Of a stretch of DNA of 33,980 bases, positions 4,206 to 6,939 are shown piece after piece. The stretch is from Flavobacteriales bacterium (lineage in GTDB: Bacteria > Bacteroidota > Bacteroidia > Flavobacteriales_D > Sanyastnellaceae): positions 1-33,980 of the forward strand of contig CANIAA010000006.1 of the NCBI GenBank assembly GCA_947465255.1, read 5' to 3'. Numbering within the stretch: position 1 is the first letter of the stretch; each line of letters starts with the position of its first letter. The notes beneath the pieces were generated by a model. It did not search any database, had not been told where the DNA came from, and was given only the letters and a program-made list of their open reading frames with translations. A program made the position numbers and the translations under genes.

Positions 4206-4391
4206 GGATTGTACTCTAAGTCCGAGTTTCTTTTTCAACTCTCAGTTCTGAACCTGTACACTTTCAGTGTTACCAACCATGATGGTCAATCAAATCAAAA
4301 TTCAGAACGCCTGCGCTACATACTTCACTGCTCATCCGCATACAAACAGCCTTAGTGAATCGTTCAGTATATTGCAGCTCCTCGTATTGAA

Positions 4392-5279
4392 ATGCATCAC
4401 ACGAAACGCTTTCTATTCTTACTGATTATAGTTGTTGCTGTCATTAAAATGAAAGCGCAACATGACACACTTTCAAGTAAGTATAGAAACCTAAAGACTT
4501 GGTCAATACCCTTGACTATAGGGGCTTCCAGCTACATAATGCTCAACGAGCTTTGGTATAAAAATTATCCACGCACGAGCCTTCACTCCTTTAATGACAA
4601 CTCTGAATGGTTGCAAGTCGACAAAGTTGGGCATGCATTTACATCGTACACCTTGGCGCGATATCTCAATAGTTATTTCGAACATAATTTGAATCTAGAA
4701 TCAGATTCATGGCGAGGTGCAGCAACGAGTATGCTATACATGACAAGCATTGAACTGCTTGATGGCAGAAGCGCTCAATGGGGATTTTCGTGGGGTGATA
4801 TGATTGCGAACACGAGTGGAATTTTTCTATTCTCTGCACAAGATTTTCTTTGGAACGAGCAACGCATCACATTGAAATTCTCATACACTCCTTCCTCATT
4901 TGCGAGCTACAACGAAGAAGTACTAGGTCGTAATTTTCAACAACGCATCTTAAAGGACTACAATGCACAAACGTATTGGGCATCATTCAACATACACAAA
5001 TTTCTCGCTTCTGGCGCGACTTTCCCGAGGTGGTTGAATATTGCAATAGGATATGGCGCAACAAAAATGACAAGTGCAAATTTCGTTGTTGATGATGTTA
5101 ATAATTTTCAACGCGAGCGTGAATTCTACTTTTCATTTGATGCAGATTTGGAACGTGTTCGATGGAAGAAAAAATGGATGAAGCGAACAGCGAAAATTTT
5201 AAGCTTCATAAAAATTCCAGGACCCACTTTTGAAATTCGTGATAATGGAAAAATAAAATTTCACGGATTGTTTTTTTGA
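4392..5279 (+). CDS. DUF2279 family protein (YfiM-like)
   Basis: VDKVGHAFTSYTLARYLNSYFE and SWGDMIANTSGIFLFSAQDFLWNEQRITLKFSYTPS are characteristic of DUF2279. Confidence 0.75.
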   Translation: MHHTKRFLFLLIIVVAVIKMKAQHDTLSSKYRNLKTWSIPLTIGASSYIMLNELWYKNYPRTSLHSFNDNSEWLQVDKVGHAFTSYTLARYLNSYFEHNLNLESDSWRGAATSMLYMTSIELLDGRSAQWGFSWGDMIANTSGIFLFSAQDFLWNEQRITLKFSYTPSSFASYNEEVLGRNFQQRILKDYNAQTYWASFNIHKFLASGATFPRWLNIAIGYGATKMTSANFVVDDVNNFQREREFYFSFDADLERVRWKKKWMKRTAKILSFIKIPGPTFEIRDNGKIKFHGLFF

Positions 5280-5312
5280 AGACCTGAACAGAAACCGAAG
5301 TGAGAAATTGAA

Positions 5313-5825
5313 ATGGGAGTTTATCGAGTGACAGAGATAACACATGCTTCACCCAAGAGTTGGGAAGATGCAACGGCCAAAGTAGTGGAAGAAGCAATGG
5401 CTCGTTTCAATAGCGTTAGTTCGGTTTATGTTCAAGACCAGACCGCAAGAGTATTAAATGGGAAGGTGAATGAGTTTTGCGTTACGGCCAAGGTCACTTA
5501 TGAAATTGTAAATCACAAATCAACCGTTACAAATATGAAAACAAAGTCAAAATCACACGCTGCCCCTAAGGCCGTGAAGAAGGCTGCTGCCAAGAAGGCT
5601 GCTCCTAAGAAGAAAGCTGCTGCTAAGAAAGCTGCTCCTAAGAAGGCTGCTGCTAAGAAGGCTGCTGCTCCTAAGAAGGCTGCTGCTAAGAAGGCTGCTC
5701 CGAAGAAAGCTGCTGCTCCTAAGAAGGCTGCTGCTAAGAAGGCTGCTCCGAAGAAAGCTGCTGCTAAGAAGGCTGCTGCTCCGAAGAAAGCTGCTGCTCC
5801 TAAGAAGGCTGCTGCTAAGAAGTAA
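5313..5825 (+). CDS. Dodecin-domain protein with C-terminal histone-H1-like Lys/Ala/Pro-rich tail
   Basis: N-terminus MGVYRVTEITHASPKSWEDATAKVVEEAMARFNSVSSVYVQDQTARVLNGKVNEFCVTAKVTYEIVN resembles dodecin; residues from about 75 on are repeated KKAAAKKAAPKK-type sequence in the same uninterrupted frame. Confidence 0.85.
   Translation: MGVYRVTEITHASPKSWEDATAKVVEEAMARFNSVSSVYVQDQTARVLNGKVNEFCVTAKVTYEIVNHKSTVTNMKTKSKSHAAPKAVKKAAAKKAAPKKKAAAKKAAPKKAAAKKAAAPKKAAAKKAAPKKAAAPKKAAAKKAAPKKAAAKKAAAPKKAAAPKKAAAKK
5577..5822 (+). repeat. In-gene degenerate tandem repeat encoding K/A/P-rich tail (AAGAAGGCTGCTGCT / CCTAAGAAGGCTGCT units)
   Basis: Near-identical 15-24 nt blocks repeated throughout the 3' half of the ORF. 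Confidence 0.9.
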
Positions 5826-5845
5826 TATTCTTCGTAACGAAAATG

Positions 5846-5870
5846 AAAACCCCGCAATGCGGGGTTTTTT
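5846..5870 (+). terminator. Rho-independent, probably bidirectional terminator
   Basis: AAAACCCCGCAATGCGGGGTTTTTT: 5-bp CCCCG/CGGGG stem extendable to CCCCGC/GCGGGG, flanked by A- and T-tracts, between convergent genes. Confidence 0.92.
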
Positions 5871-5904
5871 GTTTTCAGTAATTCCGAAACAAGTATTCAG
5901 CTTT

Positions 5905-6939
5905 CTACTTCTGCAATTTGATGAACACAGGCAGATGATCTGAATATCCACCCTTGTATGAATCACCGGCGTATGATCTGCTGGGGCGAACAACGCCATC
6001 CTTGTCGCGAAAAAGGATTCTATCATCGCGCAATACACCTGACGCTTGCGCGTCAACATGCCAACCGGTTGTGGTCATAAATCCTCTGGAAGTAATCATT
6101 TGATCCAAAGCGCCCCACTCACCCTTATAGAAATAGGAGCCATTCCCCGATGCATGTATTGCGTACATCTGATTATACAAAGGAGACGAAGGCTGGTCCG
6201 ATGCGCCCAGAGTTTCATATATACTCTTGTCATTAGGATGATCATTGAAGTCACCCATGATTAGAATTTTAGCATTGGCATTTTCTGAAAGCACAACATC
6301 AATTTTCGACTTCAACAAGGCTGCAACTGCCAATCGATTCGGTTCACTTTCGGTTTGCCCACCGCTTCGGCTCGGCCAATGGTTTACAAAAAAGTGAATC
6401 GTCTCTCCATCCAACTTGCCCTGTGCATGCAATATATCACGCGTGTTTGGATCTTTCGGATCGGGCAAAGCGATCGTATAATACTCGAATCGCACATCTT
6501 TCAATTTCGATGCATCATACAATGCTACAGCATCAATACCACGCTCATCGGGACTGTCGGCATGGATAATTTCATAGCGCCCCTTTTTAGGAGAAGCATT
6601 CAATGCAGGCTCGCGCACCAAATCAAGGAGCACAGCTTTATTCTCTATCTCACACAATCCTATAAAAACAGGTAGTTCTCCAGGGAGCAAATCAATAACT
6701 TCTGAAATACGCGAAAGCTTTTCACTGTAGCGAACAGAACTCCACTGCAATTTTCCCGAGGGAGTAAAGTCTTCATCGATTGTAATCGGATCATCAATCG
6801 TATCGAATAAATTCTCTACATTATAGAAAGCAACGATTACCTCCTCGCCTCCGGATTTTGATTTTCTCTGAGCAGTAGCACAAGACATTAAACAAAAGAA
6901 GAATGCCAAAGGGAGCAGGAATGATAGATGGTATTTCAT
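5905..6939 (-). CDS. Endonuclease/exonuclease/phosphatase family protein, secreted lipoprotein-like
   Basis: EEVIVAFYNVENLFDTIDDP..., NHWPSRSGGQTESEPNR, ILIMGDFNDHPND, GGYSDHLPVFIKL motifs; N-terminal signal with LMSCATA. Confidence 0.93.
   Translation of the reverse strand: MKYHLSFLLPLAFFFCLMSCATAQRKSKSGGEEVIVAFYNVENLFDTIDDPITIDEDFTPSGKLQWSSVRYSEKLSRISEVIDLLPGELPVFIGLCEIENKAVLLDLVREPALNASPKKGRYEIIHADSPDERGIDAVALYDASKLKDVRFEYYTIALPDPKDPNTRDILHAQGKLDGETIHFFVNHWPSRSGGQTESEPNRLAVAALLKSKIDVVLSENANAKILIMGDFNDHPNDKSIYETLGASDQPSSPLYNQMYAIHASGNGSYFYKGEWGALDQMITSRGFMTTTGWHVDAQASGVLRDDRILFRDKDGVVRPSRSYAGDSYKGGYSDHLPVFIKLQK

Follow-up and report, generated by a model that had tools for sequence, protein, structure and literature searches.

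A dodecin gene joined in frame to a resident histone H1-like gene, with a candidate internal start codon, in a genus of Flavobacteriales

Introduction

How does a bacterial gene come to begin as a dodecin and end as a histone H1-like protein, and what would such a gene make? The question is raised by one locus in the window, by which we mean the whole stretch of 33,980 nucleotides of Flavobacteriales DNA that was analyzed. An earlier note on this DNA took the N-terminal ∼70 residues to be a dodecin that runs in frame into an H1-like tail rich in lysine, alanine, and proline (K/A/P). Both observations are borne out. A single open frame on the plus strand, from the ATG at 5313 to the stop codon ending at 5825, encodes 170 amino acids, and residues 3–65 of this product match the Pfam dodecin family (E = 1.8e-15; score 57.5 bits, family cut-off 22.5). 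The note also suggested that the architecture is undescribed, and we likewise found no paper on a dodecin/H1 fusion in the searchable literature.

Results

Organization of the fused gene

The features of the locus are as follows.

4392 to 5279, plus strand: DUF2279 gene, the conserved upstream neighbor at fused and unfused loci (domain match, synteny)
5313 to 5507, plus strand: dodecin domain, residues 1–65 (Pfam match, AlphaFold2 fold with PDB matches, pocket-residue check)
5511 to 5534, plus strand: linker NHKSTVTN, once the untranslated leader of the H1-like gene (the 18 nt at its 3' end are AAATCAACCGTTACAAAT; strong synonymous conservation)
5535 to 5537, plus strand: original ATG of the H1-like gene and proposed internal start
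5535 to 5825, plus strand: H1-like K/A/P tail of 96 amino acids (composition, matches to stand-alone genes)
5845 to 5869, plus strand: hairpin after the stop codon that resembles an intrinsic terminator, suggestive only
5905 to 6939, minus strand: endonuclease/exonuclease/phosphatase-family gene, the conserved convergent neighbor (domain match, synteny)

The two halves of the product differ in composition. Residues 75–170 comprise 44 Ala, 37 Lys, 9 Pro, and 6 others, giving a net charge of +37 over 96 residues, whereas the net charge of residues 1–66 is −1. The tail is predicted to be disordered, and residues 1–66 form a confident beta-alpha-beta-beta unit in an AlphaFold2 model built from a 17-sequence alignment. 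Two minus-strand frames (5513–5857 and 5553–6059) are complements of the tail repeat and were set aside.

Signals around the gene are sparse. The flavobacterial promoter TTG-N17-23-TAnnTTTG has no match in 4300–5600, with none near either start, and the one sigma70-like match (5230–5259) is not clearly above those in shuffled sequences. The hairpin is only suggestive because each shuffled region contains about one site of this kind.

Distribution of the fusion

All eight sampled species of the window's genus carry one dodecin per genome, always fused to the tail, so that the fusion is kept in close relatives. No dodecin was found in the other 106 of the 114 family genomes searched. The most divergent congener, G003, has a one-codon gap just 5' of the linker that keeps the frame. 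Purifying selection acts on the dodecin part, for which pairwise dN/dS values are 0.04–0.45. In a four-protein tree, the genus has a support of 98, and the genus designated g8 is its sister with a support of 96 for the pair.

Dodecins are present in 167 of 396 genomes of a phylum sample and in 24 of 299 genomes of the order. In the dodecin tree, the nearest relatives of the window dodecin have a support of only about 31–36, too low to place its origin. Of 20 other long-frame dodecins of the phylum inspected, none carries a K/A/P tail and most reflect upstream read-in; the table was sampled, and other tailed dodecins may exist. No relatives were found in viral contigs, and the five plasmid records of dodecins each have <40% identity.

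Other departures from the plain dodecin form were seen. Three dodecins of genus g52 in family f20 (L106, L107, and L108, from G223, G445, and G129) have a conserved, noncationic C-terminal extension of ∼60 amino acids ending in GGSATEP(E/Q)SGGGYSG, and thus constitute another tailed dodecin lineage in Bacteroidota. In the dodecin L136 (G627), an insert of ∼16 residues follows the first strand.

Origin of the tail in an older resident gene

Searching with the linker-plus-tail sequence recovered stand-alone, dodecin-less genes from five sister genera (G014, G033, G025, G023, G017, G036, and G026). Their proteins begin with MKTKSKSHAAPK or close variants, and the genes occupy the same locus as the fusion, with the DUF2279 gene upstream on the same strand and the endonuclease/exonuclease/phosphatase gene convergent downstream. 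The G023 contig stops before the latter gene; further neighbors also match in most loci. The tail in the window shares with these genes its locus, its start peptide, and its leader (more diverged in G026), and differs from them in having a dodecin upstream. On this combination of synteny and sequence, the stand-alone gene is the direct ortholog of the fusion tail, and the tail, far from being a random extension, is a resident gene that predates the fusion and has a start codon of its own. Because an H1-like gene resides at the same locus and its leader corresponds to the linker DNA, the fusion is best read as an in-frame insertion of a dodecin before the resident gene.

Hc1 (PF07432) has no match in the fusion protein or anywhere in the genus, and the fusion protein scores 23.1 bits against a cut-off of 80 with the bacterial histone H1-like model NF038053. 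In G003, a genome 99% complete, the search turned up a topoisomerase tail but no further H1-like gene of this kind. A topoisomerase-I-like protein of the same genus (L044, L045, and L047, from G003, G001, and G007) has its own short K/A/P tail.

The sister genus g8 (L078 and L079, from G014 and G033) has 235–240 nt between the DUF2279 gene and the ATG of the H1-like gene, compared with 57–91 nt in the other sister genera. This spacer is open in frame in both genomes, has many small indels between them, and shows no similarity to dodecins. It may be what is left of the same insertion after decay, or a separate in-frame addition.

From untranslated leader to linker

In six of the seven sister-genus genes, the DNA preceding the stand-alone ATG ends with AAACAAATCAACCGTTACTAAA. 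The corresponding stretch in the window's genus is AATCACAAATCAACCGTTACAAAT, which is read in frame as NHKSTVTN. The leader AAATCAACCGTTACTAAA and the ATG of the stand-alone genes are the DNA that encodes KSTVTN-M in the fusion. The last leader bases have changed from ACTAAA-ATG in the sister genera to ACAAAT-ATG in the window's genus. The leader-plus-ATG pattern has exactly one match in each of 14 family genomes and none elsewhere among the 114. G023 and G025 have an in-frame stop immediately 5' of the leader, with no intervening ATG, GTG, or TTG, and the leader is therefore untranslated in both.

This DNA is strongly conserved. Codons 66–75 are identical between the window and G003 (30/30 nt), whereas the dodecin part matches at 119 of 192 nt. 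Of the codons for residues shared by all eight species, 17 of 20 in codons 1–54 and 5 of 21 in codons 55–84 show synonymous variation (Fisher p about 1e-4), with the boundaries chosen after the data were inspected and with a possible contribution from the codon bias of a highly expressed gene. Within codons 55–65, the constraint is true of seven species and not of G003. The leader bases are conserved in the sister genera as well, where they are noncoding.

The old start codon is probably still in use

In Flavobacterium johnsoniae, ribosome profiling has shown that adenines at positions −3, −6, −12, and −13 favor initiation (PMC6847099). The ATG at 5535 has A at all four positions, whereas the dodecin start at 5313 has one of the four. 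Only one of 744 other internal in-frame ATGs in six loci of the genus has all four. Predicted base-pairing is low around the ATG at 5535 (0.29); the dodecin start has 0.57, and starts in the window average 0.47. The synonymous conservation, the conservation of the leader where it is noncoding, and the four favorable adenines together suggest that the old start is probably still used. We infer that the locus makes two products, a tailed dodecin and a free H1-like protein. Since no further gene of this kind was found in G003, the free protein in that species would come from internal initiation alone. The earlier note had not recognized that an older gene, complete with start codon and conserved leader, underlies the tail, so that two proteins may be made.

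A less likely explanation is that the fusion is the sole product, that the former leader and start codon persist only as fossils, and that the linker is conserved as protein, either as a flexible linker or as a short motif. The frame is intact in eight of eight genomes, the linker residues are invariant, and the bases nearest the ATG differ from those of the sister genera, all of which agree with this idea. However, conservation of the linker as protein does not account for constraint that reaches synonymous sites and extends to genera where the DNA is not translated, nor for the ideal start context kept at 5535.

Alternatively, the free H1-like protein may be the product that mainly matters, with translation of the dodecin coupling to or regulating that of the H1-like part, and the fusion being a tolerated by-product. 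The start context at 5535 is indeed stronger than that at 5313. But the dodecin has an intact fold and an amino acid sequence under purifying selection, and the junction is open in all eight species, though G003 differs by one whole codon. We consider this scenario improbable.

The dodecin half lacks the flavin pocket

The modeled domain has the order of elements expected of its fold (strand 3–13, helix 17–31, strands 35–48 and 51–65), and Foldseek places it on PDB entries 6ri3, 2vxa, 2yiz, and 3onr at about 1.1–1.8 Å rmsd. At the flavin-pocket positions where canonical dodecins have Trp, Arg, and Gln, the window dodecin has Ser37, Thr44, and Cys56, and that of G003 has SRR. The flavin-binding dodecin model NF043052 gives 31.1 bits against a cut-off of 75. 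These residues put the window dodecin in a subgroup that lacks the flavin-pocket side chains. A third pocket type, with His in the flavin-Trp column (H/Q or E/R), was seen in dodecins L118 and L125.

The earlier note had proposed a flavin-storage particle. A flavin-storage dodecin with a nucleic acid-binding arm would fit the Pfam match and the fold match to flavin dodecins, but the pocket substitutions mean that flavin storage is not supported, and canonical W/R/Q dodecins do occur elsewhere in Bacteroidota. This possibility is very doubtful. An assembly or frameshift artefact that joined two genes has virtually no probability: although the genome is fragmented and 77% complete and the tail is repetitive, the junction lies in unique, nonrepetitive sequence 5' of the repeats and is found in the same frame in seven other species-level congeners, which refutes an artefact at the junction and leaves only the tail length as something that could be wrong.

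Discussion

The best explanation for these data is in-frame insertion of a dodecin gene between the DUF2279 gene and the resident H1-like gene, in the ancestor of the genus or in that of the genus and g8. Synteny and sequence show that the untranslated leader thereby became a linker and the old start codon an internal Met. Dodecins of solved structure form dodecamers whose termini both lie on the outer surface (PMC7414021), and a shell bearing 12 outward cationic arms, with about 440 positive charges, is therefore a fair inference by analogy. The full-length protein would assemble through its dodecin part, with each disordered arm contributing about +37, and the ATG at 5535 would yield the free H1-like protein.

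KPAA-type tails similar to that of the fusion bind DNA, the tail of AlgP, a protein linked to polyphosphate granules, is needed for granule spacing, and the tail of PhaF is proposed to anchor granules on the nucleoid (PMC9239181). Together with the expected dodecamer, this behavior favors a multivalent polyanion-binding shell. Most likely, by analogy, the arms tether the shell to DNA, the first candidate, or to a different polyanion, for example RNA or polyphosphate. Since the dodecin lacks the flavin-pocket residues, the shell is probably a multivalent scaffold, or a binder of some other ligand. We lean toward this explanation as a whole, comprising the insertion, two products, and a polyanion-bound armed dodecamer. 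The narrower proposal, that nested starts give a 12-armed cage and a free histone-like protein and that the cage is a multivalent crosslinker of the nucleoid (or of polyphosphate), is offered tentatively.

The locus records a gene birth in which each step is visible in living relatives: the resident gene, the inserted gene, and the conversion of leader to linker, with the old start codon possibly still in use as the final step. It also provides a test of start-codon choice in Bacteroidota, which initiate without Shine–Dalgarno sequences. Assembly as proposed would give a naturally occurring cage with polycationic arms, which could be used to model nucleoid bridging and possibly as a nucleic acid scaffold.

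Each half of the fusion resembles known proteins. The flavin dodecins (Rv1498A, 2yiz; Thermus thermophilus, 2cz8; Halorhodospira halophila, 2vxa) share the fold at 1.1–1.4 Å rmsd; in contrast, they are tailless, and their pocket Trp, Arg, and Gln are absent from the window dodecin. Among solved structures, the best sequence match is the calcium dodecin Rv0379/SecE2 (PDB 3onr; 6.7e-10 with the profile), which also has no flavin Trp and matches in fold, but it is 72 amino acids long without a cationic tail, and the likeness is one of overall similarity only. The closest parallels to the tail are AlgP and PhaF of Pseudomonas, in which a disordered K/A/P tail of KPAA repeats is likewise carried on another domain. 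Their N-terminal parts are not dodecins, however, and the similarity of their tails to that of the fusion is compositional.
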